DNA of 64,000 nt from assembly GCF_000720455.1 (NCBI RefSeq), contig NZ_JOAK01000004.1, positions 124,001 through 188,000 of the forward strand, read 5' to 3'. This stretch comes from Streptomyces virginiae. GTDB taxonomy: Bacteria; Actinomycetota; Actinomycetes; Streptomycetales; Streptomycetaceae. The translations under genes were made by a program, and so were the position numbers. This document shows positions 14,858 through 39,415 of the stretch, one piece after another; the stretch's first letter is position 1, and each line of letters begins with the position of its first letter. The notes below the pieces were generated by a model. It searched no databases. It saw only the letters and a list, made by a program, of their open reading frames with translations, and was not told the origin of the DNA.

Positions 14858-15463
14858 CTACGGTTCGCGCCGGAGCAGGTCCAGCCGGTAGGTCTCGCCG
14901 TAGCGGCTCGCGTCCCGGCCGGCGACCTGGACCGTCCCGGGGACGGCGCGGAAGGCCTCGTGGACCCCCCGTCCGGTCATGACCCCCTCGGGGCCCTCGT
15001 GGACCCAGTGCGCGAGCAGCAGGTGCCCGCCGGGCCGCAGCCGTGCGCTGATCCGCCGGGCCGCGAGGTGCAGGTCGGCGTCCGACAGGTAGTAGCCCAC
15101 CTCGGACATGACGACGAGGTCGAGGTCCGCCGCCCCGTCGGCCAGGTCCTCGGGCACCCTCAGCGTCGCGAACGAGACGCCGTCCAGGTCCGCGCAGTTG
15201 CCGCGGGCCTGTTCGATCGCCGCGGCGGAGCAGTCGGTGGCGAGCAGCGCGTCGCAGTGCGGCGCGAGGAGCCGGGTCAGGGCGCCCACGCCGCAGCCGA
15301 TCTCCAGTGCGGAGCCGAAGCGCCCGGCGGGCAGCAGGGAGGCGGTGTCGGCGAACTTCTCCCGCTCGTAGGCCTTGTGGAGGGTTCCCCAGGGGTCTGT
15401 CCTGGCGCGGTAGGCCTTGTCGAAGTGCGCGGTGGACACCGAGGCGCGGCGGGTGGCGGGCAT
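14858..15463 (-). CDS. NodS-like SAM-dependent methyltransferase
   Basis: Predicted class I methyltransferase of 201 residues. The SAM-binding motif I is ALEIGCGVGALTRLLA, motif II-like acidic ATDCSAAAI follows, and LRPGGHLLLAHWV lies after it. The N-terminus (HFDKAYRARTDPWGTLHKAYEREKF) is typical of NodS-type enzymes, which N-methylate the de-N-acetylated sugar of Nod factors. The start ATG overlaps the stop of the PIG-L gene by one base (TGATG), so translation is coupled. Being next to a deacetylase, a GNAT and a glycosyltransferase, it most likely methylates an amino sugar or another amine on the cluster product. It is the outermost gene of the cluster on this side. Confidence 0.88.
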   Translation of the reverse strand: MPATRRASVSTAHFDKAYRARTDPWGTLHKAYEREKFADTASLLPAGRFGSALEIGCGVGALTRLLAPHCDALLATDCSAAAIEQARGNCADLDGVSFATLRVPEDLADGAADLDLVVMSEVGYYLSDADLHLAARRISARLRPGGHLLLAHWVHEGPEGVMTGRGVHEAFRAVPGTVQVAGRDASRYGETYRLDLLRREP

Positions 15464-16224
15464 CAGGGCTCCCGGGTGTGTGCGGTGGGGTCGCCGAGCG
15501 GCTCCAGCTCCCAGACGAGTTCGGCCTGCAGGGGGCCGGGCTTGCGCAGGAAGGGGCCGTGGCCGACGGCGACCGGGGCGAGTTGCGAGCTGTGGCAGAC
15601 GATGGCCGCGCGCTTGGCGGCCCATTCGGTGTCGTCGAGGCGGACGTCGTACGCCACCCGCATCCGGTAGCGGGCCGCGGTCTCGCGCAGCGCGCCCCCG
15701 TACGCGGGGTCGCTCGTCAGGCGTTCGACCGCCGCGTCCGTGCCCCACCGGCGCACGGCTCCCGTGTAGGGCAGGTCCGCGTACACGTACGGCCGGGGGC
15801 CCGCCGGGTCGGTCAGGGCGGCGAGGGCCTGGTCGCGGACGGCCGCGTGGTCCGGCTGGTTGGTGCCGAGCGGCACCAGCACCCTGGTGTCCGGGTGCAG
15901 CTCCCGCAGGAGTTCGCTCAGCCCGGTGAGGGTGCCGCCGTCGCGGTAGGGGCTGTCGGCGTTGGGCAGGGTCAGCTGTTCCACCCCCATCAGGGCGCAG
16001 GCGCGCGCGTCCTCCTCCAGGCGCGCGCGGTGGGCCTCCCGTGCCGTGGCGAATCCGCAGCCCGCGTCCCACCAGGAGACGGGCGCCTGCGCGGGCGGGG
16101 CGCCGCCGTGGACGGTGACCACGGCGGCGGGGCCGTCCAGCCGGCCGAGCAGTCCGGCGACGGAGAGGGCCGCGTCGTCGAAGTGCGGTGAGAGGACCAG
16201 GGTGCTCCAGCGCTGCGACGTCAC
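15463..16224 (-). CDS. PIG-L family N-deacetylase
   Basis: Zinc-dependent de-N-acetylase (family of GlcNAc-PI deacetylase and MshB) of 253 residues. The metal-binding motif SPHFDDAALSVAG supplies His14, Asp16 and Asp17. A second His-containing element is TNQPDHAAVRD. Such enzymes remove acetyl from GlcNAc carried by a small molecule. The GTG start at 16224 overlaps the stop of the upstream GNAT gene by 4 bp, and its own stop overlaps the methyltransferase start. Together with the glycosyltransferase at 17015 it suggests that a GlcNAc unit is added to the product and then deacetylated. Confidence 0.9.
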   Translation of the reverse strand: MTSQRWSTLVLSPHFDDAALSVAGLLGRLDGPAAVVTVHGGAPPAQAPVSWWDAGCGFATAREAHRARLEEDARACALMGVEQLTLPNADSPYRDGGTLTGLSELLRELHPDTRVLVPLGTNQPDHAAVRDQALAALTDPAGPRPYVYADLPYTGAVRRWGTDAAVERLTSDPAYGGALRETAARYRMRVAYDVRLDDTEWAAKRAAIVCHSSQLAPVAVGHGPFLRKPGPLQAELVWELEPLGDPTAHTREP

Positions 16225-16952
16225 CGCTCGCCGGCCCCGGGCAGCCGGTCGGCCTCGTGGTCGCGGTCCCGGTCGCGGCCCTGGGGGGTGACGCCGGCGG
16301 CGACGAGCAGGAGTCCCGTCGAGGTCTTGCCGAACGGGCCTGCGACGTACTCGGCGAGGAGCCGGCGGGCCTGCTCCTTGTCCGCCTCGGGTATGGCGTC
16401 CGGCAGCGTGAACGTGGCGTCGGTGCGCTTGAGTTCCTCGACCGCCGCGTAGTACTCGTGGCGCAGCAGGCCCCACACCGCGCCGTCGTGGTGGCGGCCG
16501 TCGAGGTAGAAGTACTCGCGCAGGATGCCTTCGAGGGTGAAGCCGACACCGGTCACCAGGCGGAGCACGTTCTTGTTGTAGAGCGCGGTGGTGAACTGCA
16601 CGCGGTGGGCGTTGCGGGCGTGGAAGAGGTGGTCGATCAGGAGGTCGAAGGCCTCGGCGCCCAGGCCCCGGCGCCACAGCTCGCGATCTCCGATCGCGCC
16701 GCCGAGGACGTATCCGCCGACCGGACCCTGGGCCTTGAAGTGGACGGCGCCCACGGTGCGGTCCTCGGCGTCGCGGACGGCGAACTGGCGCAGGCCGCCG
16801 CTCTGGTCGAGCCGGCGGAACTCCTCGGCGGTGACGACGTCTCCGTCGGTGGCGGCCATGACGGCGGCGGGGGCGTCCGGCCCGAACCACCGTGCCATCA
16901 GCTCGTAGTCCTCGTCCCTGGGCCGTTCGAGCCTGACGAGTTTGCCCTGCAT
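16221..16952 (-). CDS. GNAT acyltransferase with C-terminal extension
   Basis: A GCN5-type N-acyltransferase of 243 residues. The GNAT fold covers about residues 1-165, with the acyl-CoA loop in ELWRRGLGAEAFDLL and the end motif NKNVLRLVTGVGFTLEGILREYFYLDGR typical of RimJ/RimL-like members. About 70 further residues follow, ending in a charged tail. In goadvionin biosynthesis a GNAT joins the acyl chain to the peptide N-terminus, so this is a candidate for the same step; acylation of an amino sugar made by the neighbouring deacetylase is the alternative. The start ATG at 16952 follows CAGGGAG. It overlaps the PIG-L gene by 4 bp. Confidence 0.85.
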   Translation of the reverse strand: MQGKLVRLERPRDEDYELMARWFGPDAPAAVMAATDGDVVTAEEFRRLDQSGGLRQFAVRDAEDRTVGAVHFKAQGPVGGYVLGGAIGDRELWRRGLGAEAFDLLIDHLFHARNAHRVQFTTALYNKNVLRLVTGVGFTLEGILREYFYLDGRHHDGAVWGLLRHEYYAAVEELKRTDATFTLPDAIPEADKEQARRLLAEYVAGPFGKTSTGLLLVAAGVTPQGRDRDRDHEADRLPGAGER

Positions 16953-17014
16953 GGCGACTCCCTGAGTGAAGGTGCTGGATGAGTGGAGGGGGTGGGGGGT
17001 GGAGGGGATGGTGG

Positions 17015-18196
17015 TCAGGTGGCGGCCGCGGCGGACGCGACGAGCAGTTCCAGGCGGTCGGCGGCCTCGGGGGCGGCGCCCGCGGAGCGCAGGTCGTCGC
17101 GCATCCGTGCGGCGTTGGCGCGGATGCGGGTGTCGTCCATGACGCGCACGAGGGCTTCGCGCAGGGTGTGCGCGGTCAGCCGCTCGCGGTCGAGGCGGAC
17201 TCCGAGTCCCAGCCGGCCGATGCGCTCGGCGACGGCGGCCTGTTCCTGGGTCTGCGGGACGGCCACCATCGGGGTTGCGTGGAGGAGGGCCTCCATGGTG
17301 CTGCCCATGCCCGCGTGGGTGACGAACGCGTCGGCGTGGCGCAGGACGGCGAGCTGGGGGACGTACGGGCGGGCGTCGACGTGGTCGGGCAGCGGGCCGA
17401 GGGCGTCGGGGTCGATCCCTGGGCCGTAGGCCATGACGACCTGCCAGGGCAGGTCCGCGACGGCCTCGCCGCACATCCGGAAGAACTCGGGCCATCCGTA
17501 GCAGGCGGTGCCCAGGGCGATCAGCAGCACCGGCCGGTGGTCGGCGGCGGGGGACCAGTCGCCCTGGAACCCGCGGTCGCCGGTGCAGGGTCCGACGAAG
17601 GCGAATCGGTCGTCGAAGGTTTCCCCGCGGTACTGGAAGGAGCGCGGCAGGAAGACCAGGCGCAGCGGCTCGGTGTGGCCGAGGAAGTCGCCGGCGGACG
17701 TCGCGGGCAGGCCGTGGGCGGCGAGGAAGCGGGTCAGTTCGCGGACGAACCGCAGGACTCCGGGGTGCAGCGGCTGGTCCGCCAGGAACTCCGCCTCCAG
17801 GGAGAAGTGCTCGTTGGACACGAAGGAGGGCCACATCTCGGCGGCCGGGAGATGCCACTTGGCGGCGAGGACCCGGCCTGCCCAGGCGATCCCGTCGTAG
17901 GCGATGACGTCGGGCCGGTCGGTGGCCCAGGCCTCGGTCAGCACGGGCAGGGTGGCCTCGGCCTCCCGGAGGAAGTCGGTGGGCGAGATGTCCAGGCCGT
18001 CGTCGGTCAGGGCGTCGTCGACCGGGTTGCGGTAGACGACGGGCTCCGCGCCGACGGCCCGTACGGTCTCGGCGAACGCCTCGGTGACCGCGTACGAGAC
18101 CCGGTGGCCACGGCGCACCAGTTCTTCGACCAGGCCGAGGGTGGGGTTCACATGACCGTGCCACGCGATCCCCACGAATCCGACGTGGAGCGGCAT
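17015..18196 (-). CDS. Macrolide-type (GT1) glycosyltransferase
   Basis: Nucleotide-sugar-dependent glycosyltransferase of 393 residues, GT-B fold, related to the macrolide MGT/OleD group. The N-terminal acceptor domain starts HVGFVGIAWHGHVNPTLG. The donor-binding signature FVTHAGMGSTMEALLHATPMVAVPQTQEQAAVAERI is in the C-terminal domain, where TQEQ holds the sugar. It is first in an operon with the GNAT, PIG-L and methyltransferase genes. The likely role is to glycosylate the lipopeptide or to act in self-resistance; a GlcNAc donor is inferred only from the deacetylase neighbour. It starts at ATG 18196 behind AAGGGGAG. Confidence 0.92.
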   Translation of the reverse strand: MPLHVGFVGIAWHGHVNPTLGLVEELVRRGHRVSYAVTEAFAETVRAVGAEPVVYRNPVDDALTDDGLDISPTDFLREAEATLPVLTEAWATDRPDVIAYDGIAWAGRVLAAKWHLPAAEMWPSFVSNEHFSLEAEFLADQPLHPGVLRFVRELTRFLAAHGLPATSAGDFLGHTEPLRLVFLPRSFQYRGETFDDRFAFVGPCTGDRGFQGDWSPAADHRPVLLIALGTACYGWPEFFRMCGEAVADLPWQVVMAYGPGIDPDALGPLPDHVDARPYVPQLAVLRHADAFVTHAGMGSTMEALLHATPMVAVPQTQEQAAVAERIGRLGLGVRLDRERLTAHTLREALVRVMDDTRIRANAARMRDDLRSAGAAPEAADRLELLVASAAAAT

Positions 18197-18279: not shown

Positions 18280-18801
18280 ATGACGACAGGAACCAGAAGG
18301 CCCGTCGCGGTGCCGTGGCACCGGGCTCTCGCCGGGACCGACGAGGCCCGGGTGGCCGCCGTCCCGGTGCCGACGGCGGCGCCCTCCGTGCACCGCAAGC
18401 CGGTGGAGGCCGCCTCGGCGGCCCTCGGCGCCGCCTTCGGCGCGCTGTCCGAGGACGTGCGGGCGACGGCTCCGCTGTACGTCCTGTGCCACGACTACGG
18501 CACCTGGGCGGCCCGGCGCTTCGTCGCCCGCTGCCACGACCCCGCACGCCGGCTGCGCCCCTCGGACTCGGTCGGAATGGAGACCTCCGAACTGGTGCGC
18601 CCCTACCTGACCGCCTCGGGACATCGCGGCGACTGCTACCTGCTGGCGCGGCTGCCGGCGTCCGACGAGGAGTTCACCCCTGCCGTCACCGCCGCCCGCC
18701 CGGCCGCCGTCGTACTGGACCTGATCGTGTTCCCCGGCGAGGACCCGCGTGACGCGGACTGCCTCGCCCTCGCCACCACCTGGAAGGCGTCCGGCCTGTG
18801 A
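18280..18801 (+). CDS. Unknown protein coupled to a ketosynthase
   Basis: A 173-residue protein I cannot assign with certainty. It has no signal peptide or membrane segment. Its stop overlaps the start of the ketosynthase gene at 18798 by 4 bp (GTGA), so the two are made together. Segments such as LYVLCHDYGTWAARRFVARCHD and PAAVVLDLIVFPGEDPRDADCLALATT have a spacing weakly reminiscent of half a thiolase-fold ketosynthase, with no catalytic Cys-His-His set. It could be a degenerate ketosynthase partner (chain-length-factor-like) or a substrate-handling protein. I chose the ATG at 18280 because GGGGTTGGG precedes it; an ATG at 18256 is also in frame. Confidence 0.65.
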   Translation: MTTGTRRPVAVPWHRALAGTDEARVAAVPVPTAAPSVHRKPVEAASAALGAAFGALSEDVRATAPLYVLCHDYGTWAARRFVARCHDPARRLRPSDSVGMETSELVRPYLTASGHRGDCYLLARLPASDEEFTPAVTAARPAAVVLDLIVFPGEDPRDADCLALATTWKASGL

Positions 18802-19934
18802 GCGACATCGTCATCAGCGGACTCGGCCTGGTCACCCCCTTCGGCCGCGGCGTGGAGCCGTACTGGCAGGGCCTCCTCGGCGGACGCTCCGCCCTGGGGC
18901 CGGCCCGGCGCTTCACGGCGCCGCCCTACCGGGGCGAGCCGGTCGGCGAGGTACCGCAGGCGGGACCGGAGCCGGACGGGGGTCCCCGCAAGAGCGCCTA
19001 CGCACGGGCCGCCCTGGAGGAGGCGCTGCACGCGGCGGGCCTCGCCCGGCTCCCGGACGGCGCCGTCGTCCTCCTCGTCGGCCAGGCCGTCCTCCCCCGG
19101 CCCGGCGACGGCCGTGCCCTGCCGACCGCCGACGAGCGGGAGTTCATGGGCCCGGACCCCGCCGAGGTCCTCGGGGTGCGCCCGGACCCGCGCCACGTGC
19201 ACCTCTCGCACGCCTGCGCCTCCGCCGTCTTCGCCGTCGGCTACGCCCGCGAGCTGCTGCGCGCGGGCTCCGCGCCCGTGGCCGCCGTGGTGGGCTCGTC
19301 GGTGCTCAACCGGTACGAGTACGCCAGCATGGACGTCGTCCGGGCCGTCGGCCGCACGGCCGCCCGGCCCTTCGACGTCGAACGGGCGGGCATCTCGCTC
19401 GGTGAGGGCGGTGGCGCCGTCGTCCTGGAGAGCGCCGGTCACGCCCGCGCCCGCGGGGCGGCCGCGGACCTCGTCGTCGCGGGTGCCGCCTGCCGGGTCG
19501 CCGGCGCCAAGTCCGCGGCCTCGGACACCGACCGGATCGCCGCCTGCATGCGCGACGCCCTCGACGACGCCTCGGTGCACGGACTGGACCACGTGCACGC
19601 GCACGCGACCGGGACCGGTCAGGGCGACGCGGCGGAACTGGCCGCCGTCGAGGCCGTCGCCGCGGACTGCGGCGCCCGCGCCCTGCCCGTCAGTTCGCAC
19701 AAGGGCGCCATCGGCCACCTGCTGCACATCTCCGGCGCACCGGCGATCGCCGCGGCCGCCGGGACGCTGCGCAGGGGGATCGTCGCGCCCACGGCGGGCC
19801 TCACCACCCCGGAGCCGACCGACCGGCTGGTGCTGCCCACGGCCCCGATGGAGGTCTCCGGCGCCCGGACGGCAGCCGTGAACAGCTTCGGCTTCGGGGG
19901 CAACAACGCCTCGCTGGTCCTGCTCCGGCGGTGA
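18798..19934 (+). CDS. Beta-ketoacyl synthase (type II, FabF-like)
   Basis: Condensing enzyme of 378 residues that would extend an acyl chain on an acyl carrier protein. The thiolase fold has the nucleophile Cys140 in SHACASA, His269 in HAHATGTGQGD and His307 in SSHKGAIGHLLH, so the Cys-His-His triad is complete. The chain is shorter than FabF (about 410), with a compact middle. It begins with GTG inside the stop of the preceding small gene. It is one of two ketosynthases in the cluster; the other (26189) is more FabF-like. A strong bidirectional terminator follows. Confidence 0.9.
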   Translation: MSDIVISGLGLVTPFGRGVEPYWQGLLGGRSALGPARRFTAPPYRGEPVGEVPQAGPEPDGGPRKSAYARAALEEALHAAGLARLPDGAVVLLVGQAVLPRPGDGRALPTADEREFMGPDPAEVLGVRPDPRHVHLSHACASAVFAVGYARELLRAGSAPVAAVVGSSVLNRYEYASMDVVRAVGRTAARPFDVERAGISLGEGGGAVVLESAGHARARGAAADLVVAGAACRVAGAKSAASDTDRIAACMRDALDDASVHGLDHVHAHATGTGQGDAAELAAVEAVAADCGARALPVSSHKGAIGHLLHISGAPAIAAAAGTLRRGIVAPTAGLTTPEPTDRLVLPTAPMEVSGARTAAVNSFGFGGNNASLVLLRR

Positions 19935-19941
19935 ACCCACA

Positions 19942-19997: not shown

Positions 19998-21485
19998 TCA
20001 GGCGGCCGCCACACCGACCATCTTGCGCAGGGCCGCCGTGTCGGTCTTGCCGTTGGCGCTCAGCGGAAAGCGGTCGACGACGTGGACGGCGTTGGGCTGT
20101 TCGTACTCCGCCAGATGCGGAGCCATCCGCCGGCGCCACTGGGCCGGTGAGCCGCCGTCGGGGTCGGCCACGACGAAGTGCAGGGCGCAGCCGCGCCGCC
20201 GGTCCTCCACCGCCAGCGCCTTGACCTGCCGCCCGCAGGCCTCGGCCTTGCGCTCCAGGCTCTCCGGGTAGAGCGTGAAGCCCGACCGGTGCACAGCCTG
20301 GTTGCGCCCCACCACGTACAGATGGCCCTCGGCGTCGAGGTGCCCGAGATCTGCGGTCGGGTACCAGGAGTCCTGCGGTACGGGGGCGAGCGTGCCGTCG
20401 TCGAGCAGGTGGCCCTCCATCAGCCCGGGCGAGAGCACCTCGATCTCGCCGAGCTCGCCGGGGGCGGCCGGTTCGCCGTCCGCGCGCACCACCCGTACCC
20501 GGATGCCCGGCAGCGGCCTGCCGCAGCCGGTGGGCACGTCGGGGGTGGCCAGCGCGACGTTCCCGAGTTCGGTGAGTCCGTACCCGTCGAGGAGGGGCCG
20601 GCCCAGGGCGGCGGGGAAGGCCGCCGCGAGCGGCGCGGGCAGCGGCGCGCCGCCGACGCCCCAGACGCGTACGCGGCTCAGCGCGGCGCGCAGCTCGGGG
20701 CGGCGGCGCACGACGCCGAGCAGGGAGTGGTAGGTGGACGGGGCCGCGTCCACGGCCGTGACCCCGTGCCCGGCGGCCTGGGCGAGGGCCACGTCGAGCC
20801 GCTGGTAGGGGGTGACGGCCAGCGTGCAGCGGGCCAGCCACCACAGCAGCACCACGGACAGCCCGTACTGGTGGGAGAAGGGCAGCAGCGGGGCGAGCAC
20901 GTCGTCCGCGCGGTAGCCCATGGCCGCGATGGTGCGCCGGGTGTTGTCGTGGAGCGCGCGGCCGGACTTCACGATTCCCTTGGGCGGGCCGGTCGTTCCC
21001 GAGGACCACAGCACCACGGCGTCGGCGCGGGCGAACCACGCGGTGAGGTCGACGTCCGCGTCGAGCGGGGGGTGGCCCGCCCCGAGGCCGGGATACGCCA
21101 GCACGCTCTCGGCGGGGAAATCGGCGGCGGCCTCTTCACGGGTCAGCAGCCATCGCGCCCGCGCCCGGCGGGCCGCGAAGCGTCCGTCCGCTGCCGACTG
21201 GCGGTGGTCCACCGGCACCAGTGAGGCGTCCAGGTGCATCAGGGCGAGCAGGGCCACGACGTAGTCGACGGAGTTGTCGCCCTTGACCAGGACCCGGTCG
21301 CCCGGTCCGACGCCGCGCCCGCGCAGCTCCCCCGCGGCGGCGAGCACCCGGCCGGTGAGCGCGGCCCCGGTGAGCGTGCCGGCCGCGTCGGCGAGGCCGG
21401 GGGCTGCGGGTGCGCCGGCCGCCCGGCCCGGGGGTGGCGTCCGTACCGTCCCTGCTGTCGGTTCCTCGGTCCTCGTCACGGTCAC
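19998..21485 (-). CDS. AMP-dependent acyl ligase
   Basis: Adenylate-forming enzyme of about 495 residues that activates a carboxylic acid as acyl-AMP and passes it to CoA or a carrier protein. The P-loop is LWSSGTTGPPKG, DGYGLTELGNVAL is motif A5, and YPTADLGHLDAEGHLYVVGR is the hinge. The catalytic Lys lies in LSANGKTDT near the C-terminus. The GTG at 21485 overlaps the agmatinase stop by 4 bp (GTGA), which decides the start; the frame extends to 21539 without support. As the last gene of the ketosynthase-LanKC-precursor-FabI-agmatinase operon, it probably loads the starter acid for the lipid part. Substrate unknown. Confidence 0.9.
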   Translation of the reverse strand: MTVTRTEEPTAGTVRTPPPGRAAGAPAAPGLADAAGTLTGAALTGRVLAAAGELRGRGVGPGDRVLVKGDNSVDYVVALLALMHLDASLVPVDHRQSAADGRFAARRARARWLLTREEAAADFPAESVLAYPGLGAGHPPLDADVDLTAWFARADAVVLWSSGTTGPPKGIVKSGRALHDNTRRTIAAMGYRADDVLAPLLPFSHQYGLSVVLLWWLARCTLAVTPYQRLDVALAQAAGHGVTAVDAAPSTYHSLLGVVRRRPELRAALSRVRVWGVGGAPLPAPLAAAFPAALGRPLLDGYGLTELGNVALATPDVPTGCGRPLPGIRVRVVRADGEPAAPGELGEIEVLSPGLMEGHLLDDGTLAPVPQDSWYPTADLGHLDAEGHLYVVGRNQAVHRSGFTLYPESLERKAEACGRQVKALAVEDRRRGCALHFVVADPDGGSPAQWRRRMAPHLAEYEQPNAVHVVDRFPLSANGKTDTAALRKMVGVAAA

Positions 21486-22510
21486 CGGTGTGCTCCTTCT
21501 CGCGTTTCCCGTTCCAGCAGCGGGGTGCGCGGATCCCACCGCGTGCCCAGGGCCCGGTCGCGGCGCCGCCGGGCGATGCCGGACAGCGCCTCCAGGACGA
21601 CGCGGTTGCCCAGGTAGGCGGTGATGTCGGCGTGGTCGTAGGGGGGCGCCACCTCGACGACCTCGACGCCGACCACGGGAAGCTCGTAGGCGATCCGGCG
21701 CACCGCGTCCAGCAGCTCGCGGGAGGTCAGACCGCCCGGCTCCGGAGTGCCGGTGCCCGGCGCCTGGCCCGGGTCCACCACGTCCACGTCGACCGACAGG
21801 AACACCCCGTCGCAGTCGTCCATGGCGACGGCGAAGGCCTCGGTGAGACAGGCCGGCAGGCCGCGCGAGGTGATCTCGGACATCTCGTACGAGCGCATGC
21901 CCTCACCCGCCATCCAGCGCAGGGTGTCCGGGCCGGGCCAGTAGCCGCGCAGCCCGATCTGGAGGAAGCGGTCGCCGCGCACCGCGCCCGACTCGATGAG
22001 CTGGCGCATCGGCTTGCCGTGGCCGTACAGCGGGCCGTCCTCCACCTCGCCGGTGTCGGCGTGGGCGTCGAAATGGAGCATCGCTATGCGTCCGAAGCCG
22101 TGGTGGCGGGCCAGCCCGCGCATGTCGGGGAGCGCGATCGTGTGGTCGCCGCCGAGCACGACGGGGATCGCCCCGAGCGCGGCCGTCATCCGTACCGCCT
22201 GCTCGATGCTCTTGATGCTCTGCTCGATGTCGCCCGAGTAGCAGGGGACGTCGCCGGCGTCGTACACCTTCAGCTCGGTGAGCGGGTCCACGCCCAGGGC
22301 CAGGCTGCGGCGTGCGCCGTTCTGCGGCAGGTAGCAGGCCTGGCGCATCGCGGACGGGCCGAAGCGGGCGCCGGGCCGGTGCGAGGTGCCGCCGTCGAAG
22401 GGGGCGCCGAGGATGACCACGTCGGCGTCCTCGGGCGGGTCGGACAGGTCGAGCCGCGGGACGCCGAGGAAGGTGATGTCGGGCCCGTGGGCCGATCCCA
22501 GGTGGTGCAC
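21482..22510 (-). CDS. Agmatinase-family ureohydrolase
   Basis: Binuclear manganese enzyme of 342 residues that splits urea from a guanidino compound. All metal ligands are visible: His123 in GGDHTI, Asp148, His150 and Asp152 in HFDAHAD, and Asp241/Asp243 in SVDVDVVDPGQAPGTG. The sequence is closer to agmatinase/guanidinobutyrase than to arginase. In clusters that use arginine-derived starters, such an enzyme turns a guanidino end into a free amine. That is the natural reading here next to an acyl ligase, but the true substrate is not known. The start is a GTG at 22510, one base after the stop of the FabI-like gene. Confidence 0.92.
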   Translation of the reverse strand: MHHLGSAHGPDITFLGVPRLDLSDPPEDADVVILGAPFDGGTSHRPGARFGPSAMRQACYLPQNGARRSLALGVDPLTELKVYDAGDVPCYSGDIEQSIKSIEQAVRMTAALGAIPVVLGGDHTIALPDMRGLARHHGFGRIAMLHFDAHADTGEVEDGPLYGHGKPMRQLIESGAVRGDRFLQIGLRGYWPGPDTLRWMAGEGMRSYEMSEITSRGLPACLTEAFAVAMDDCDGVFLSVDVDVVDPGQAPGTGTPEPGGLTSRELLDAVRRIAYELPVVGVEVVEVAPPYDHADITAYLGNRVVLEALSGIARRRRDRALGTRWDPRTPLLERETREGAHR

Positions 22511-22511
22511 G

Positions 22512-23412: not shown

Positions 23413-23499
23413 TCAGCAGTGGTTGCTGGCGGTGCTGGCGACGCGCGTGGTCTCCTCGGCGGGGACCTCAAGGCCCTGCAGGTCGAGAACGATCGACAT
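23413..23499 (-). CDS. Class III lanthipeptide precursor (28 residues)
   Basis: A very small gene encoding the substrate of the adjacent LanKC enzyme. Residues 1-20 form the leader, starting MSIVLDLQGLEVPAEE. LDLQGLE matches the conserved hydrophobic-LQ-LE motif by which class III synthetases recognise their leaders. The last eight residues are ASTASNHC. Ser22, Ser25 and Cys28 form an S-x-x-S-x-x-C pattern ending exactly at the C-terminus, as needed for a labionin or avionin ring. Thr23 could also be dehydrated. An excellent AGGAGG ribosome site lies eight bases before the ATG at 23499. The position, 65 bp after LanKC and before a hairpin, is typical of precursors. Confidence 0.9.
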   Translation of the reverse strand: MSIVLDLQGLEVPAEETTRVASTASNHC

Positions 23500-23564
23500 G
23501 ATGTTTCCTCCTCTCCGACGTATCGGGGTCAGTGGACGACCGGTCGGCTGATGCCGTCCGGAAC

Positions 23565-27741: not shown

Positions 27742-27753
27742 TGGAGAGTTGAT

Positions 27754-32034: not shown

Positions 32035-32933
32035 GTTTCGAGCGCCGTCTTGGGGGTGATCACCCGGGTGGGGATGGACTTGTTGGTGATCCGCGCGAAC
32101 ATGTTGCGCGGGCCCGGGATCCACACCTCGTCGACCGCCGCCGTGTGCAGGCCCCGCAGGATGGTCTGCCAGTGGACGGGGGTGGTCCAGCCGTCCAGCA
32201 GGTCCTGCTTGATCTCCTCGGGATCGGTCAGGAGCCGCCCGTCGACGTCGGACAGGACCGGTATCCCCGGGGTGTGCCACGGCACGGTGCCGTAGACCTC
32301 GTCGTGCAGGCGCGCGCGCAGCCCGGAGACGGCGGAGCAGTGCTCGGCGCGGTTCATCGTGTAGAAGGGGAAACCCCCCTCCTCGCGGACCCGCTGTTCG
32401 AAACGCTCCAGGGAGCGCAGCGACGCGGACACCGCGTGGACCTCCTCGTCGAGGACCACCGACAGCTCGATCCATTCACCGCGTGCGCGTGTCTCATCGA
32501 CCAGCCGCTGCACCGTGTCGTGCGGGAGCCGGTAGAAGAAGTGGCAGCCCAGCGGTTCGTCGAGCGAGTCGAAGTAGTCCGTCTCGACGGCCACGCTGCG
32601 CCGGATCAGCTCCAGGGCGTCGGGGTAGGTCAGGGCGCCGGCCCAGACGGCGGCCATGAAGGCGCCGAAGCTCTGCCCGCCGCAGACGGCGGGCCGGCCG
32701 CCGTGGCGGTCCTGCGCGCAGTCGGCGAGGGCGAGGGTGAGTGCCATGAACCCGGTCTCGAACACCTCCCACTCGTAGATCGACGCCTCGCGGTAGGCGT
32801 CGGCCAGGCAGTAGCCCAACACCTCGTCCGCCTGGGCGAATCTGCGTCTGGCGTGGTCGTTCGTGGTGACGAACTCGCTGATCGCGTCGAATCGGGTGGG
32901 AATGAGCCCGGGGAAGAAGAGCGCTACGGCCAT
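32031..32933 (-). CDS. Malonyl-CoA:ACP transacylase-like acyltransferase
   Basis: A stand-alone acyltransferase of 300 residues with the FabD/AT fold. The nucleophile Ser88 lies in GGQSFGAF, where the normal motif is GHSxG; Gln precedes Ser in place of His. A His in NRAEHCSAV is the expected catalytic partner. It begins MAVALFFPGL, as usual for these domains. It should load extender or starter acyl groups onto the cluster ACP. The Gln variant and the absence of the usual Arg region mean malonyl specificity is not certain. It lies 25 bp after the ThDP enzyme gene and is coupled to the exporter gene. Confidence 0.85.
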   Translation of the reverse strand: MAVALFFPGLIPTRFDAISEFVTTNDHARRRFAQADEVLGYCLADAYREASIYEWEVFETGFMALTLALADCAQDRHGGRPAVCGGQSFGAFMAAVWAGALTYPDALELIRRSVAVETDYFDSLDEPLGCHFFYRLPHDTVQRLVDETRARGEWIELSVVLDEEVHAVSASLRSLERFEQRVREEGGFPFYTMNRAEHCSAVSGLRARLHDEVYGTVPWHTPGIPVLSDVDGRLLTDPEEIKQDLLDGWTTPVHWQTILRGLHTAAVDEVWIPGPRNMFARITNKSIPTRVITPKTALET

Positions 32934-32958: not shown

Positions 32959-34683
32959 TCATTCGTCCTCGCGCAGCGGGAAGTCGCCGCCCGCCCCGGA
33001 GGTTCCCGGGGGGCTGTCGGCGAGGGACACCCTCACCTCGACCACTCCTGCCGTGTTGTTGTCCGCGCAGTGCTGCCACGCCGTATGGAGGACGCCGTGG
33101 AGATCGCCGGGGTTGTCGACCCGCCAGAATCCGAGACCGTACGCACCGGCCAGGCCCTCGGATCCGGTCGGGCGGTCGGCGGTGAAGGCGAACCGTGAGC
33201 CGGTGCCCGACACCCGGTCCAGGTTGGTCTGGAGCCACCCGTAGCCGCCGTTGTCGAGGACCACGTACAGCACGGCCACGCCCGCGTCGGCGACGGTGGG
33301 CAGTTCGGAGCGGAAGAGGTTGAAGGCACCGTCGCCGACCACGGCCACCACGGGCCGGCCCGGCTCGGCCAGGGCGACGCCCACGGCGGCCGCGGCGCCG
33401 AAGCCGAGCGGGGTCTGCTCGCTGGGCACGACGGACCCGCCGAGGGCCCCGCAGCTCCAGTGGGGGTAGAAGTACGACCACATGTCCTGCAGGCCGTTCT
33501 CCTGGACGAGGACGCGGGTCTCGGGAACGGCGCCGGCGAGGGCGGACAGCACGCGCGCCACCGGTACGCCCGCGGCCGGCCCGGCGGCGTCGGCCGCCGC
33601 GTCCGCGGCCGCCGCCCGCTCGGCCGCGCGTGCGGCGTGGGCCTCCCGTACGGCGTGGACCCGTTCGGTCCAGGCGGTGTCGCCCGCGTGCCCGTCCAGC
33701 AGCCGGGACCAGGCCGCGACGGTCCGTCCGACGTCGCCCAGCACGCCGGTGCCCGGCCTCCCGGTGACGAGGCTCTCCTCCCCCGTCACCACCTGGATCA
33801 CCGGGAGCCCGGCGGCGTCCGGCCAGCCGAAGGTCGCCGTCTCCTCCAGCCGGCTGCCGAGCGCGATCACCAGGTCGCTCTCGCGCCACAGCCGGTCGGC
33901 GGGGGCCACCGTGTAGAGGCCCGACACTCCGCAGAAGAGCGGGTGGTCCTCGGCGATCGTGCCCCGGCCGGACGCGGTGGTGAAGATCGCGGCGCCGAGC
34001 CGCTCGGCGAAGGCCTCCAGGAGGCGGTCGGCGTTGCGGTGGCGGGCGCCGCCGCCCACCAGCAGCAGGGGCCGCCGGGCCGCGGCGATGGCGTCGGCGG
34101 TGGTCCGCAGGACTTCGAGGTCCGGGGTCTGCCGCTGCGGGGCGGCCGACCGCCAGGGGCCGACGCGGGTGACCGGTTCCCCGGCCGTCTGTTCCGCGAT
34201 CTCTACGTACACGGGGCCGGGCGTGCCGTTGACGGCGACGGCGACGGCCTTCTCCAGTACGCCCGCCAGCCGGTCGGGGTGGTCGACCCGCGCCGCCCAC
34301 TTGACGTAAGGACGCACCGCTGCGAGCTGGTCGAGCTCCTGGAACGCCCCCGTGCCCAGCCGGTCCAGGGCGGTGCCGCCGGCGATGAGCACGACGGGCG
34401 CGGCGGCGGAGGCGGCCTCCAGCACCCCCGTGAGGGTGTTGGTCAGGGCCGGGCCCTTGCCCACCGCGCAGATGCCGGGCCGCCCGGAGGCGAGGGCGTA
34501 ACCGGTCGCCATGAACAAGGCGTTGCGCTGGTCCCGGCACAGGACGAACCGGGTGTCGGTGCCCTCCAGGGCGCCCAGCAGGTCCATGTCGTCGCCGGGC
34601 AGGCCGAAGACGACGCCGGCGCCGAGGTGGTGCAGGTGGTCGGCGACGGCGTGCCAGGCGCCGGGATACGTACGGTCGTTCAT
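32959..34683 (-). CDS. Thiamine-diphosphate-dependent enzyme (acetolactate synthase/decarboxylase fold)
   Basis: A 574-residue ThDP enzyme with pyrimidine-binding, central and diphosphate-binding domains. The cofactor motif GDGAFNLFRSELPTVADAG (GDG...N) is intact. At the position of the universal catalytic Glu the sequence reads CRDQRNALFMATGYA, so the residue is Gln52. A few family members, such as glyoxylate carboligase, also lack this Glu. It may decarboxylate or ligate a 2-oxo acid. The ATG at 34683 overlaps the stop of the aldehyde dehydrogenase gene (ATGA), suggesting the two act in sequence: the product aldehyde of one could be the substrate of the other. Confidence 0.9.
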   Translation of the reverse strand: MNDRTYPGAWHAVADHLHHLGAGVVFGLPGDDMDLLGALEGTDTRFVLCRDQRNALFMATGYALASGRPGICAVGKGPALTNTLTGVLEAASAAAPVVLIAGGTALDRLGTGAFQELDQLAAVRPYVKWAARVDHPDRLAGVLEKAVAVAVNGTPGPVYVEIAEQTAGEPVTRVGPWRSAAPQRQTPDLEVLRTTADAIAAARRPLLLVGGGARHRNADRLLEAFAERLGAAIFTTASGRGTIAEDHPLFCGVSGLYTVAPADRLWRESDLVIALGSRLEETATFGWPDAAGLPVIQVVTGEESLVTGRPGTGVLGDVGRTVAAWSRLLDGHAGDTAWTERVHAVREAHAARAAERAAAADAAADAAGPAAGVPVARVLSALAGAVPETRVLVQENGLQDMWSYFYPHWSCGALGGSVVPSEQTPLGFGAAAAVGVALAEPGRPVVAVVGDGAFNLFRSELPTVADAGVAVLYVVLDNGGYGWLQTNLDRVSGTGSRFAFTADRPTGSEGLAGAYGLGFWRVDNPGDLHGVLHTAWQHCADNNTAGVVEVRVSLADSPPGTSGAGGDFPLREDE

Positions 34684-35921
34684 CGGCCGGCCGCCGGGAG
34701 GTGCTCGGCGACGGCCTTGGAGACGAGGACCGGCTCGGTCCAGATCTCCGTGCCGTCGGTGATGTAGTTCGCCATCCGCCCGTATCCGCCGAAGGGGGCG
34801 TTGCCGTCGTCGATGGACAGCAGGGTGGTGTCGAGGGTGACGGTGGTGCGCCGGCGCAGGGCGTCGGCCAGGGCGGGGGCGTGGCCGTACACGCTGGATC
34901 CGAGGGCGCGTTCGGTGAACACCGCGGTGGTGAGGGTGGCCGCCAGGGTCTCCGGGTCGCGGTAGGCGACGACGTTGAAGACCGGTGCGAAGAACTCCGG
35001 CACCGGGGTGCGCGGGGTCACCTCCTCGCCCACGACGACGGTGGGCTCCATCCGCCGCTCGCGGAAGTCGACATGACCGCCGTGGACGATGTTGCGGCGG
35101 TTGCGGGCCAGGAACTGGGCGGCCTCCTCCAGCGCGCCGTCGTAGAAGACGGGCCCGTAGTCGGCGTCCGGATCGGTGTAGGGCCCGTAGCGCAGGGCCT
35201 TGATTTCGGTGACGAGGGTGTCGAGGAACTCGTCGAGCAGGTCCTCCTGGACGCAGAACAGGTCCGGGCCCAGGCAGTCCTGGCCTGCGTTGTGCATCCG
35301 GATCTCCACGGCGTCCCGCGCCGCCTTCGCGAGGTCGGCGCCCGGGGCGACGACGAAGGGGTTGACCCCGGAGCCGAGGAACAGGAACAGCTGGCCCGGG
35401 GACAGTTGGGGCCTGATCTGCTCGGCGTTGCGGTAGGCGCCGGTGAAGACGACGACGTCGGCCGGCCGGACGTGCTCGCGCAGGAATTCGCGCTGGCTGG
35501 CATTGGTCAGTTCGATCGGCAGCCCGTGGCGCGCGGCGAGCAGCCGGTGCAGCCTGCCCATCTGGTCCTTGACCTGACTGGAGGGGCGGAAGACCAGGCG
35601 GTCCGCGTAGAGGGCGGGCACCAGCAGGTACAGGGCGTACGAGTACAGGACGACGTTGGACGGCATGTAGACCGCCAGTCGCGGGACCCGGCCCGGGCGG
35701 TACGTCTCGAACTCGGCGAGCGCGCCGTCGAGCGTGGCGATGGTCGCCTCGATCTCGTATCCGGCGGCGCGGTGCGTGGAGATCTCGCAGAGCAGGTCGT
35801 GGACGGCGCCGGGGTCGCCGGCCAGGAAGTCCCGGACGGCGCGGAGTGCCTCCAGGCGTCCGGGGTCGGGGACCTGCACCGGCTCGTCGAGAGCGGTCGG
35901 CCAGGCGGGAGCGGAGCTCAT
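34680..35921 (-). CDS. Aldehyde dehydrogenase family protein lacking the general-base Glu
   Basis: A 413-residue member of the aldehyde dehydrogenase superfamily, shorter than the usual 480-500. The catalytic Cys216 lies in HNAGQDCLGPDLF. Where typical enzymes have L-E-L-G-G, this one reads LFLGSG, so the general-base Glu is Phe181. Acylating dehydrogenases and acyl-CoA reductases do not need that Glu, so it may form or reduce an acyl thioester and not release a free acid. The ATG at 35921 is chosen for AGGAGG seven bases upstream. It is the first gene of the operon with the ThDP enzyme, acyltransferase and exporter. Confidence 0.85.
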   Translation of the reverse strand: MSSAPAWPTALDEPVQVPDPGRLEALRAVRDFLAGDPGAVHDLLCEISTHRAAGYEIEATIATLDGALAEFETYRPGRVPRLAVYMPSNVVLYSYALYLLVPALYADRLVFRPSSQVKDQMGRLHRLLAARHGLPIELTNASQREFLREHVRPADVVVFTGAYRNAEQIRPQLSPGQLFLFLGSGVNPFVVAPGADLAKAARDAVEIRMHNAGQDCLGPDLFCVQEDLLDEFLDTLVTEIKALRYGPYTDPDADYGPVFYDGALEEAAQFLARNRRNIVHGGHVDFRERRMEPTVVVGEEVTPRTPVPEFFAPVFNVVAYRDPETLAATLTTAVFTERALGSSVYGHAPALADALRRRTTVTLDTTLLSIDDGNAPFGGYGRMANYITDGTEIWTEPVLVSKAVAEHLPAAGR

Positions 35922-35999: not shown

Positions 36000-37241
36000 T
36001 CATGGCTGTTGATCGGTCCGCATGCCCCGCAGCGCGGGCGCCGCCCAGCAGCCGCAGACCACCAGCAGATAGGCGCAGGCGAGCGTGAGGATCGTCGGGC
36101 GCAGGCCGGCGGCGCCCACGAGCACCACCGTCAGGGAGGCCCCGAGCGGAACGGCCACCAGCCCGGCCGTGTCGACCGCGGCCGACACCCGCCCGTACTG
36201 CTCACGCGGAACGCTGCGCTGGAACACGCCGGTCCGGAGCGGACCCACCGGGGCGGCGAAGGCGCCGAGCAGCGCGAGCAGTACGGCGCCGACGGCGAGG
36301 GAGGGCAGGGCGGCGAGGGCGCCGATCGACAGGGCCACCGCCAAGCCCGAACCGAGGTACACCCGGCGGGCGCCGAGCCGGTGCCCGGCGACGGCGTAGC
36401 CCACCGTGCCGGCCACCGCCCCCAGCCCGAAGGCCGTGAGCAGGACGCCCAGGCCGGCCGCGCTCCCCAGGTGCTGGTAGGCGTACGTCACCAGGACCAC
36501 GCCGGCCAGTCCGCTGTCCAGGCCGTTGAAGGCGGTCCCGGACACCGCCATGGCCCGCAGCAGCCGGTGCTCGCGCAGCGTGCGCAGCCCCGAGCGCAAC
36601 TCGGCCAGGTAGGTCCCGGCGGCCCGTGCGCCCGGGGCCGCGGCCCGGCCGGCCGCGATCCAGCCGAGGATGAGGGCCGCCGCCAGCAGGCAGGCCGCCG
36701 CGTCGACGAGCAGGACGTCGGCGACCCCGAGCAGGGCGACGGCCGCTCCCCCCAGGGGCGGCCCGCACAACTGGGCGATCTGGTGGACTCCGCCGAGCAG
36801 CGCGTTGCCCCGCTCCAGCGGCATCTCCGCATCCGCGGACAGCTCGGGCACCAGACCGGTGACGGCGGCGGAGGCGGGAATGTCCAGCACATTGGCGGCC
36901 ACGACGAGTGCCGCGAGTACGGGGAAGTTCAGCATCTCCAGCGCGTGCATGACCGGAATGCACGCCGCCCCGATACCGCCGACCGCATACGAGAGCACCG
37001 CCGTCGCCCGGAATCCCCAACGGTCCACCAGGGGGCCGGAAACGAATCCGACGGCTCCCGAGGCGACGGCGCCCAGGGCGACGAGGATTCCGGTCTGCGC
37101 CACGCTGCCGGTCGTCTGCAGCACGAACCACGGGACGGCGACGACCATCATCGCCTCGCCGACCGAAGCGACCGCCACGGCCCCCAACAGGACATAGATG
37201 CCCCACCGGCGCCGCCGGCCCGGCCGTCCATCGATTGTCAT
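36000..37241 (-). CDS. MFS transporter
   Basis: A 413-residue, roughly 12-helix major facilitator of the enterobactin-exporter/DHA3-like group. GPLVDRWGFRATAVL is the loop 2-3 motif and GAVAGTVGYAVAGHRLGARR the matching second-half motif. It is a second candidate exporter or a self-resistance pump for the lipopeptide. The ATG at 37241 gives the basic N-terminus MTIDGRPGRRRRWG; an ATG at 37259 is also in frame. It diverges from the XRE-TPR regulator gene, which may control it. Confidence 0.9.
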   Translation of the reverse strand: MTIDGRPGRRRRWGIYVLLGAVAVASVGEAMMVVAVPWFVLQTTGSVAQTGILVALGAVASGAVGFVSGPLVDRWGFRATAVLSYAVGGIGAACIPVMHALEMLNFPVLAALVVAANVLDIPASAAVTGLVPELSADAEMPLERGNALLGGVHQIAQLCGPPLGGAAVALLGVADVLLVDAAACLLAAALILGWIAAGRAAAPGARAAGTYLAELRSGLRTLREHRLLRAMAVSGTAFNGLDSGLAGVVLVTYAYQHLGSAAGLGVLLTAFGLGAVAGTVGYAVAGHRLGARRVYLGSGLAVALSIGALAALPSLAVGAVLLALLGAFAAPVGPLRTGVFQRSVPREQYGRVSAAVDTAGLVAVPLGASLTVVLVGAAGLRPTILTLACAYLLVVCGCWAAPALRGMRTDQQP

Positions 37242-37410
37242 GAGTATTGACTTTAACATGACTCGAATGTGACTACATGAATACCCCAAGAATGCGCAAA
37301 AATCGGCACTGGTGTACGACTCAGCCCTGCGGGACGCGCCATGTCGGGTAGAATCTTTGTCACACTCCGTAAATATCCATCCGCCCTTCAACCACACAGC
37401 GAGCCGAACC
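37242..37410. promoter_or_regulatory. Divergent promoter region between exporter and cluster regulator
   Basis: A 169-bp, locally AT-rich gap. It contains an inverted GTCATG/CATGAC pair (37237-37242 and 37257-37262), TTGACT at 37246-37251 and ATGTGACTACATGA at 37267-37280. These half-sites match those in the other cluster promoters, so the regulator may control itself and the exporter. Since no ATG precedes the regulator in frame, the start of that gene within this region is uncertain. Confidence 0.5.
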
Positions 37411-38679
37411 TTGACGATCGAGCAGCCAGCATTCGGGAAACGCGTCCGGGAAAGCCGTCGCCTCCAGGGCCTGTCCCAGGGGGACCTGGCCGGCGAGGGC
37501 GTCTCGTCCAGCTACGTGTCGCTGGTGGAGAGCGGTCACCGGATCCCCAGCCTCAAGGCGGCCAAGGTCATCGCCGGGCGGCTCGGGGTGACGCTCGAGG
37601 AGCTGTGCGAGCCCGAGGCGCAGGACCGCCGGCGCACCCACCGGCTCCAGCTGGTCGGCCTGCTGGTGGCGGCCCGCTCCAGCCAGCTGGCCGGGGGCTG
37701 GGCCGCGGCCAGGAGCCAGCTGGACGCAGTCGTCCGGCAGGCCGGCGACGGCGGGTTCGACGAGGTGCGCTGGGAGGCCCGCTGGGAACTGGCCACCGTG
37801 CTCGACCGACTCGGTGCCGACGCCGAGCGCGAGGCGACCCTGCTGGAGCTGCTGGACGACCCGATCACCACCGCCGCGCAGCTCATGCGCACCCGGGCGG
37901 CGATCGAACTCGCCGACCTCTACCGGCGCACGGGGCGCCTCTCCGACGCCGTCACCTTCGCGGAGGAGGCCTCCGGCGCCGCCACCGGTCTCGACGCGGG
38001 CCGGCCCGAACGCGTCCAGGCCCAGGTCGTGCTGCTGACGGCGTACGTGGAGAGCGGCGAGTGGCACCGCGCGAAGAGCCTCGGCGACGCACTGCTCGAC
38101 GAGGTGCCCACGGTGGCGGCCGAACCGCTGCGCGCGTGCGCGCTCTGGGCGGCGGCCGGTGCCCGCCACCTCGGTGGTGGCAGCGAGGCCCTCGGCCTGC
38201 TGGCCGAGGCGGACGGGCTGCTCGGCGGGGCGGACGACGTCCGGCTGCGCATCCGTCTGGACCGGGCCCGCGCCCTGCTGGCACTCGCCACCGGCGACGC
38301 GAGCGCCGAAGCCCTGCTGGAGCGGGTCCGCCATGCGCCGGTACTCTCCTCCGCGCCCACGGCCGCGGCCTGGCTCGCGGCCCTGGAGGCGCTGGCCGTC
38401 GTACGGTCCGGGGAGGCTTCCGCGGACGCCGCGGCCGCGGCCGCCGACGCGCTGGACCCCTCGGCGCTGGACCCGATCGACCGGGCCCGCTGCACGGTGA
38501 TCCGGGCCCGCGCCCGGCGATCGGCGGATCAGGAGGAGGCGGCGGCCGCGGACTTCAGGGCGGCGGCCGCGGACTACGAGAAGGCCGGCGCCGTCCGGCT
38601 CGCGATGGAGACGTGGCGGGAGCTGAGCGCCCCCGGCCACGTCACCGGCGTCGACCCGCACGCCGTGCTCATGCCGTAG
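37411..38679 (+). CDS. XRE-family regulator with TPR-like C-terminus
   Basis: Probable pathway-specific regulator of about 422 residues. The N-terminal helix-turn-helix (about residues 7-70) reads FGKRVRESRRLQGLSQGDLA, then VSSSYVSLVESGHRIPS. The remaining 340 residues are Ala/Leu-rich helical repeats of TPR type, which often bind a peptide or small signal. It is the only regulator inside the cluster and lies next to promoters carrying TGACT half-sites, so it is the best candidate to bind them. The start is uncertain: I use the TTG at 37411 (giving L/M-TIEQPAFGKRV), and a GTG at 37312 is the alternative. It overlaps the convergent gene by 11 bp. Confidence 0.85.
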   Translation: MTIEQPAFGKRVRESRRLQGLSQGDLAGEGVSSSYVSLVESGHRIPSLKAAKVIAGRLGVTLEELCEPEAQDRRRTHRLQLVGLLVAARSSQLAGGWAAARSQLDAVVRQAGDGGFDEVRWEARWELATVLDRLGADAEREATLLELLDDPITTAAQLMRTRAAIELADLYRRTGRLSDAVTFAEEASGAATGLDAGRPERVQAQVVLLTAYVESGEWHRAKSLGDALLDEVPTVAAEPLRACALWAAAGARHLGGGSEALGLLAEADGLLGGADDVRLRIRLDRARALLALATGDASAEALLERVRHAPVLSSAPTAAAWLAALEALAVVRSGEASADAAAAAADALDPSALDPIDRARCTVIRARARRSADQEEAAAADFRAAAADYEKAGAVRLAMETWRELSAPGHVTGVDPHAVLMP

Positions 38680-39415
38680 CGGGCTCCGGACATCGCAGTC
38701 TCCGGAACACCGCCCTGCGGACGGGAGCGGAGGCCGCCACGGCCGCCACCGTTCCCGCTCCGTCGGGCAGGTCCCGTACGTACGCCACGCCGCCCGCACC
38801 CCACGGCCCGGAGGCGGGCAGCGCCACCCTGCCGTCCGGCCCGGCGGCCAGCACGTCCACCTCGGCGGCGAGCGCGAAGGCTCCCCGCCCGGCCAGTCGC
38901 AGCGCCGCCTCCTTGCGGGCCCACATCCGGGCCAGGACCAAGGGCCGCCGTCCGGCCGCCGCCTCCCCCGCGAAGGCGCGCTCCGTTCGGCTGAAGGGCA
39001 ACAAGGCCTCCGCCTCGACCGAGCCCGGGACCGTGACCGTACTGAGCGCCACCGACAGCCCCCGGGCGAGGGCGACGAGCAGCCCTCCGTCGTCCCGGCA
39101 GACCGCGAGCCCGAACGGCCCCGCGTCCCATCTCTGACGCCCCAGGTCGTCCCGTGTGAGCCGGACCTCGTCCGGCGGCCGCATCAGCAGGCGGCCGAGC
39201 AGGGCCCGGACCGTCCGGTCGGCCCCCGCGGAAGCCTTGTGCCGCATCTCTTCGGCGGGAGGGAATTCGCTCCCGTTCAGCACGGAGAAGACGTGGACCT
39301 CGCCCTCACCCACGTCGTACGGGCGGTCCGGCCGCGGCCATTCCTCTGGTAAATCCGATCCCCGTGCATCCTTTTCAGGTTGATGTATGTCATAGAGAAG
39401 ATCATCCCCCGGCAA
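38669..39415 (-). CDS. 4'-phosphopantetheinyl-transferase-like protein, divergent
   Basis: A 248-residue protein resembling the Sfp group that turns apo carrier proteins into the active form. The C-terminal helix signature MWARKEAALRLAGRG (W-x-x-K-E-A) is clear. The usual metal-binding G-(I/V)-D-(I/L)-E segment is replaced by LSVALSTV, and the FNLSHS motif is not recognisable (FGLAVCRDD there). It could be a very divergent active enzyme or one that has lost activity. Modification of the cluster ACP is the expected role. The start is unclear: TTG at 39415 is the longest frame and internal GTG or ATG codons are possible. Confidence 0.65.
   Translation of the reverse strand: MPGDDLLYDIHQPEKDARGSDLPEEWPRPDRPYDVGEGEVHVFSVLNGSEFPPAEEMRHKASAGADRTVRALLGRLLMRPPDEVRLTRDDLGRQRWDAGPFGLAVCRDDGGLLVALARGLSVALSTVTVPGSVEAEALLPFSRTERAFAGEAAAGRRPLVLARMWARKEAALRLAGRGAFALAAEVDVLAAGPDGRVALPASGPWGAGGVAYVRDLPDGAGTVAAVAASAPVRRAVFRRLRCPEPATA

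Follow-up and report, generated by a model that had tools for sequence, protein, structure and literature searches.

A Streptomyces virginiae gene island predicted to encode a lipidated class III lanthipeptide of the solabiomycin kind

The solabiomycins and the lipolanthines are the described class III lanthipeptides closest to the system analyzed here. The primary solabiomycin papers are reportedly Asamizu 2022 and Ijichi 2023, and avionin, the residue contained in the lipolanthines (nocaviogua A/B, microvionin, nocavionin and the goadvionins), is formed with the use of LanD. In an excerpt of PMC13192320, solabiomycins A and B from S. lydicus are given as 13-guanidinotridecanoyl-G-G^-Dhb-(I/V)-A^^-G-G-A^. 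They are octapeptides with the core x-S-T-x-S-x-x-C, a labionin and an undecarboxylated Cys, and the gene for their sulfoxidation is solS. Nocaviogua is described in the excerpted part of PMC10435860 as an octapeptide with S-x2-S-x2-C spacing, an N-terminal C13 chain and a dimethylated guanidine. Lipoavitides are ribosomally synthesized and post-translationally modified peptides that are acylated at the N-terminus with a chain made by non-modular fatty acid enzymes. GNATs attach the acyl group in the small number of lipidated lanthipeptides known that resemble the one proposed here (PMC13060382, in the sections excerpted). We compared these systems with a gene island in a 64,000-nucleotide stretch of Streptomyces virginiae (assembly GCF_000720455.1, contig NZ_JOAK01000004.1, positions 124,001 to 188,000), which is called the window below.

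Judged from its genes, the island probably encodes a lipo-lanthipeptide of the solabiomycin kind, a reading to which we give a probability of roughly 80%. The product would very probably be a small peptide, cross-linked and bearing a fatty chain; the additional enzymes should change the chain and perhaps add a sugar. The cluster would belong to a known kind, that of the lipidated class III lanthipeptides, with extra tailoring genes. The 28-amino-acid (aa) precursor LanA (MSIVLDLQGLEVPAEETTRVASTASNHC) scored 30.2 bits against the NCBIfam model for class III lanthipeptides (cut-off 22) and LanKC scored 1004 bits against its model (cut-off 575), which confirmed the precursor and synthetase named in an earlier note on this DNA. 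A GGAGGA-type ribosome site precedes lanA. The open reading frames (ORFs) of lanKC and the FabF-like ketosynthase KS1 overlap by 4 bp (26189-26192), as that note had seen, and a same-strand run of genes from KS1 to an AMP-forming acyl ligase encloses lanA and lanKC. KS1 passed the FabF equivalog model with 527.1 bits (cut-off 493.75), and the FabI-like enoyl-acyl carrier protein reductase scored 392 bits (cut-off 299). The note's acyl ligase and agmatinase-family amidinohydrolase (AGM) were likewise recovered (PF00501, PF00491), as were, by family matches, the second ketosynthase (KS2), acyl carrier protein (ACP), acyltransferase (AT), cytochrome P450 and diiron gene that it had placed nearby. 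It had not named the GNAT, the PIG-L gene, the CLF-like ORF hyp181, or the genes for a thiamine-diphosphate (TPP) enzyme, an aldehyde-dehydrogenase-like enzyme (ALDH) and a phosphopantetheinyl transferase (PPTase)-like protein.

The link to the solabiomycins was drawn through the precursor leader. The pattern xDLQGLEVP was found in 9 of 392 Streptomyces genomes, and a control pattern in none of those nine. Besides the host genome, G036 and G047 (S. rimosus), these were G136, G193, G264, G293, G359 and G401, each of which carries a triple lanA with the cores GSTVSGGC, GSTISGGC or GSTVSTGC. GST(V/I)SGGC is present in at least one copy in five of these six, in both forms in G401 and G136, and G264 has GSTVSTGC alone. 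When GST(I/V)SGGC was given a 13-guanidinotridecanoyl chain, three dehydrations, a labionin and a sulfoxide, its mass corresponded to 3.49 and 3.54 µM per 3.125 µg/mL (an assumed value, being a common dilution step), and the values tabulated for solabiomycins A and B are 3.49 and 3.55 µM (PMC13192320, excerpt). Decarboxylated sulfoxides (3.68 and 3.74) and forms without the sulfoxide (3.55 and 3.61) did not fit the table. A TPP protein from S. lydicus fell into a 100/100 clade with those of G293 and G264. The window protein grouped apart from these, with S. avidinii, S. virginiae and NRRL F-2664 in a clade that also has 100/100 support. Because the peptide cores reproduce the tabulated values and the S. 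lydicus protein groups in this way, we conclude that the six triple-lanA loci are probably solabiomycin-type clusters and the window a sister type, the solabiomycin cluster being known here by peptide, mass and one protein clade.

The window and these loci have in common an 11-gene core, namely lanA, lanKC, GNAT, KS1, TPP, ALDH, a helix-turn-helix (HTH) regulator, the PPTase-like gene, ACP, fabI and ligase. The full core was found in five of the six triple-lanA genomes, and 5 of 11 genes in G193, which was compared to base 60000 of its contig. Identity between the window and the solabiomycin-type loci is 70-72% for TPP, 76-77% for ALDH and, in five loci, 36-45% for the PPTase-like protein; the values against G293 are 54% (KS1), 87% (FabI), 69% (ACP), 71% (ligase), 72% (TPP) and 77% (ALDH). 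In the six solabiomycin-type loci and in S. albus (L036), KS1 and LanKC have the GNAT gene between them, and in the window it lies in the same island but in a different operon from KS1-LanKC. Together with the matched families, this linkage and the core shared with loci whose precursors match the solabiomycins support the earlier proposal of a class III lanthipeptide joined to a chain from discrete fatty-acid enzymes, where the GNAT would be expected to couple the fatty acid to the peptide. The further view that this combination of genes has no counterpart among known clusters does not hold. Of the suggested kinship to lipolanthines, the lipidated class III kind stands, but the nearest family is the solabiomycins and not the avionin-containing lipolanthines, from which the window cluster differs in its discrete chain enzymes and in having no linked LanD.

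Compared with the solabiomycin type, the window has the core ASTASNHC instead of GST(I/V)SGGC, one lanA instead of three, and in addition KS2/hyp181, a VinK-like AT, the diiron protein, the amidinohydrolase, the P450 and sugar-type genes, which include a glycosyltransferase (GT), PIG-L and a NodS-like methyltransferase (MT). Within the six solabiomycin-type stretches, which reach about 0.5-4 kb past the ligase, no match was found for hyp181, AT, diiron, AGM, GT, PIG-L or P450; the KS2 query hit no gene other than KS1, and for MT two of the stretches held weak, distant matches. No report of the exact window cluster was found among open-licence papers, and the VIA comparison covers the families on its list, so a family outside that list may also apply.

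A LanKC search of the species collection gave 30 loci, and the gene set was present in four of them: S. composti (L008), S. rimosus (L009, on the same contig as the G047 match), NRRL F-2664 (L010) and S. albus. It was also present in a separate genome, G036. The other 26 loci (44-48% LanKC identity) did not have it. The combination is not a chance one: five further Streptomyces loci have the set, and another six have its core, one of these being partly covered. In the presence/absence comparison (all 22 genes, 39 loci or locus groups), KS1, GNAT, LanKC, LanA, FabI, ligase, KS2, hyp181, diiron, ACP, AT, TPP and ALDH occurred in all six window-type loci, P450 and the major facilitator superfamily (MFS) gene at 30445 in five, and AGM, GT, PIG-L and MT in four, within the stretches compared. 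Where AGM is missing, the gap between FabI and ligase holds a ketoreductase-like short-chain dehydrogenase/reductase (SDR) in S. albus, and such an SDR with a FAS1-type dehydratase in S. composti, genes that fit the synthesis of a chain. Because the gene content at this point of the operon differs between loci, diversification of the head group and of the chain can be tested directly. The co-variation of AGM with GT, PIG-L and MT may reflect few evolutionary events.

The precursors of the window-type loci have a near-identical leader and end in S-T-x-S-x-x-C. Their cores are ASTASNHC (window and L010), SSTVSSHC (L009 and L043), SSTISNNC (L008), and GSTISNNC and GSTISAYC (L036); S. composti has two lanA copies in tandem and S. 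albus three. Solabiomycin-like antibiotics would be one branch of a wider Streptomyces family in which the 11-gene core is common and the tailoring genes differ. Two other candidates were rejected as relatives. A Lentzea locus (L011, 48% LanKC identity) has a ketosynthase and an ACP nearby, but these adjoin FabD-like and FabH-like ORFs, the rest of the set is absent, and by eye the region looks like a fatty-acid operon of the housekeeping type. SapB-type LanKC plasmid loci (2 of 77 records examined) have ABC transporters and no acyl genes annotated alongside.

Whereas the genes, their families, conservation and linkage and the lack of a linked LanD are observations, we infer every chemical step of the following pathway. 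LanKC would dehydrate Ser22, Thr23 and Ser25 and close a labionin with the C-terminal Cys28, whose carboxyl would be retained, and a host protease would cut off the 20-residue leader. The core is predicted as A-S-T-A-S-N-H-C with labionin and dehydrobutyrine, its register being taken from solabiomycin-type peptides. The ligase would load a polar acid, probably arginine-derived and bearing a guanidino group, onto the ACP; KS1 would elongate the chain with housekeeping ketoreductase and dehydratase plus the cluster FabI; and the GNAT would transfer the finished acyl chain to the new N-terminus (Ala21). KS2 with hyp181, the VinK-like AT, the diiron protein and the P450 would modify the chain or the starter, and the amidinohydrolase may convert the terminal guanidine to an amine. 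One possible role of the GT, PIG-L and NodS-like genes is the addition of an N-methylated amino sugar, another is self-protection. The exact masses supplied for the product, as computed [M+H]+ of the ASTASNHC core, are 989.4985 with a C13 guanidino tail and 947.4768 as the omega-amine, where the C13 length is borrowed from solabiomycin (and nocaviogua) and may differ here. A fuller version, in which lipid, labionin peptide and N-methylated amino sugar are united in one glycosylated molecule, AGM turns the guanidino tail into an omega-amine, and the new ketosynthase with its small partner sets the chain start, seems doubtful to us.

Several points weigh against assigning the cluster to the solabiomycin kind. 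The product is predicted from genes, and the link to the solabiomycins is drawn from a peptide, a mass comparison at an assumed dilution step and the tree position of a single S. lydicus protein. Identity to the solabiomycin-type proteins is 43-48% for LanKC (over the pieces aligned), 46-48% for GNAT and 52-54% for KS1. Within the stretches compared, S. albus is without P450, the 30445 MFS gene, AGM, GT, PIG-L and MT, and S. composti without AGM, GT, PIG-L and MT. An odd C13 chain argues against a simple 4-guanidinobutyrate starter extended by C2 units. AGM fits the plain agmatinase model and so may act on agmatine instead of the tail. Homologues of KS2, hyp181, diiron, TPP, ALDH and ligase stand together without LanKC in G161 and G223 (L100-L103), which could mean that some of these genes belong to the pathway of another product. 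Finally, the cluster-bearing genome G036 encodes a third PF02441 protein, whose match is strong (149 bits, in a 208-aa frame).

This last protein also bears on the rival that a true lipolanthine is made, with an unlinked cysteine decarboxylase converting the C-terminal Cys to avionin. The window precursor does have the lipolanthine S-x2-S-x2-C core ending in Cys, matching the layout of nocaviogua (Ala-Avi-Val-Ser-Avi-Asn/Asp-Gly-Avi), and the host genome encodes four PF02441 proteins. All four lie on contigs other than that of the cluster, so that they were rejected as its LanD, and the earlier statement that the cluster lacks one was correct. One of the four, a 246-aa flavoprotein (L050 4874-5614), has a neighbor ORF that looks methyltransferase-like by eye, and its region is perhaps a separate biosynthetic locus. 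Among seven cluster-bearing genome entries (G047 and G296 being the same strain), two PF02441 proteins of constant size and score, presumed to be housekeeping, were found in all seven, and the draft genome of S. composti has those two alone. Labionin rather than avionin is expected in the product because LanD is unlinked, the S. composti proteins are presumed housekeeping and the solabiomycin values require an intact Cys; a missing LanD is likewise expected because peptides of the solabiomycin kind keep the C-terminal Cys. The avionin product is therefore improbable.

Less probable again is that two clusters adjoin, a SapB-like class III lanthipeptide locus and a separate acyl or glycolipid pathway (ketosynthase, ligase, TPP, ALDH, diiron), as the LanKC-free cassette of G161 and G223 and the 26 LanKC loci without the set might suggest. 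Against this, lanA and lanKC lie inside the KS1-to-ligase run, and KS1, GNAT, LanKC, LanA, TPP, ALDH, ACP, FabI and ligase are linked in two divergent cluster types. ABC transporters flank two other LanKC genes examined, but none was matched among the island genes scanned. We regard as very improbable the rival that KS1 and FabI are self-resistance copies guarding against a fatty acid synthesis inhibitor, for which platensimycin and kalimantacin offer precedents: KS1 and FabI alike score above the equivalog cut-offs of housekeeping enzymes, and the genome holds further copies (nine ketosynthase places at E 1e-40 or better, 34-45% identical to KS1; one further FabI at E 1e-20 or better, 54% identical), but the cluster also brings an ACP, a ligase, a PPTase-like gene and an AT of its own, and these, with the SDR and dehydratase of its relatives, fit chain synthesis better than resistance.

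The remaining enzymes were characterized by family and structure matches. AGM passed the agmatinase equivalog (185.3 bits, cut-off 174.3), and its PDB neighbors include two entries named agmatinase 2, proclavaminate amidinohydrolase, 3-guanidinopropionase and guanidinobutyrase; its ORF overlaps that of the ligase by 4 bp if the inferred ligase start is used. The AT matched 5czc and its kin with 174-176 bits and the next structures with 55 bits or less. We take 5czc to be VinK. The AT gene occurs in 3 of 295 Streptomyces genomes, the host included (E 1e-60 or better). KS2 retains Cys-His-His motifs by eye. In cispentacin biosynthesis, AmcF-AmcG is a divergent ketosynthase with a small motif-less partner, accompanied by an ACP and an AMP-forming ligase (PMC10698177, excerpt). 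KS2 reached 140.6 bits against the AmcF family, below its cut-off of 325, and hyp181 matched no family even at E 0.1, so that no cispentacin pathway is implied and the AmcG model for hyp181, which fits by fold alone, was rejected.

The TPP enzyme was rejected as a 2-ketoarginine decarboxylase (216 bits, cut-off 500), which would also give an even-numbered chain. Among PDB structures it matches oxalyl-CoA decarboxylase, 2-hydroxyacyl-CoA lyase and, equally well, an entry named BbmA best, so that an alpha-oxidation-like chain shortening is possible. The best NCBIfam row of the P450 is the glycosyltransferase activator family, below its cut-off; a pure activator was rejected because the heme Cys motif can be recognized by eye and the P450 is retained in S. 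composti, where GT is missing. The lipoavitide acyl group is reportedly short, branched and hydroxylated and started by a β-ketoacyl-ACP synthase III (Ren 2024). Such a synthase had no family match among the island genes scanned, in which both ketosynthase genes matched PF00109/PF02801. Nothing useful on BbmA/CsmA or on lanthipeptides with agmatinase was found in open-licence papers. GT, PIG-L and MT lie together at 14858-18196 and resemble a de-N-acetylate-then-N-methylate logic, the order of steps used in Nod factor synthesis.

The 22 genes of the island are listed in Table 1; several start codons were inferred by comparison with relatives.

Table 1. Genes of the island with positions in the window
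Feature	Position	Strand	Basis and remarks
MT, NodS-like methyltransferase	14858-15463	-	PF05401 (on longer ORF); NF041650 64.7 bits, below cut-off 300
PIG-L family deacetylase	15463-16224	-	PF02585 above cut-off
GNAT, predicted N-acyltransferase	16221-16952	-	PF13302; in 12/12 loci compared, window included
GT, MGT-type glycosyltransferase	17015-18196	-	TIGR01426, 415 bits (cut-off 260)
hyp181, small CLF/CYF-like ORF, 181 aa	18256-18801	+	Putative partner of KS2; 4-bp ORF overlap
KS2, divergent ketosynthase	18798-19934	+	PF00109/PF02801
AMP-forming acyl ligase	19998-21485	-	PF00501 E 1.7e-54; start GTG 21485 inferred by comparison with L010
AGM, arginase/agmatinase-family amidinohydrolase	21482-22510	-	PF00491 E 1.5e-86; TIGR01230
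FabI-like enoyl-ACP reductase (start inferred)	22512-23282	-	NF005908
lanA, class III precursor, 28 aa	23413-23499	-	NF038154; predicted leader 1-20, core A-S-T-A-S-N-H-C
lanKC, class III lanthionine/labionin synthetase, 875 aa	23565-26192	-	NF038151; RamC_N, kinase and LanC-like matches
KS1, FabF-like ketosynthase	26189-27508	-	TIGR03150 above cut-off
R2-like diiron protein	27673-28704	+	PF00268 above cut-off; R2-like oxidase matches below NCBIfam cut-offs
ACP, acyl carrier protein	28795-29040	+	PF00550
Cytochrome P450	29148-30377	+	PF00067
MFS transporter	30445-32034	-	PF07690; start inferred at GTG overlapping AT stop
AT, VinK-like acyltransferase	32031-32933	-	PF21124 (VinK small domain)
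TPP enzyme	32959-34683	-	Family and PDB matches
ALDH, aldehyde-dehydrogenase-like enzyme	34680-35921	-	PF00171; divergent N-terminal part, start inferred
MFS transporter (start inferred)	36000-37259	-	PF07690
HTH regulator	37312-38679	+	PF01381
PPTase-like gene (weak)	38669-39415	-	PF01648 E 0.02, below cut-off

The island covers about 25.7 kb (14756-40456) of an 8.3 Mb genome, between accA2 and orf_tm, which by eye we take to be a small membrane-type gene left of the cluster. Of 20 relatives searched, 12 have orf_tm, all in the same genus; in 11 of these 12 loci maf, orf_tm and accA2 adjoin within about 3.5 kb without a cluster gene, and the twelfth ends before accA2. Because the three genes are contiguous in these 11 relatives, the island is an insertion at a position that is empty there. 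The left junction is common to the window and NRRL F-2664; in L036 and L043/L044, maf, orf_tm and accA2 had no match within the stretches compared.

At the nucleotide level, the lanA leader and its ribosome site (23413-23520) are nearly frozen between the window and L009, L008 and L036. Where the same residue is encoded (Met excluded), the codons are identical to those of the window lanA at 22/22 positions in L009, 20/20 in the first copy of L036 and 19/20 in the second copy of L008, and the codon identity of LanKC in the same genome pairs is 0.69-0.75. Such conservation points to selection at the RNA or DNA level or to gene conversion.

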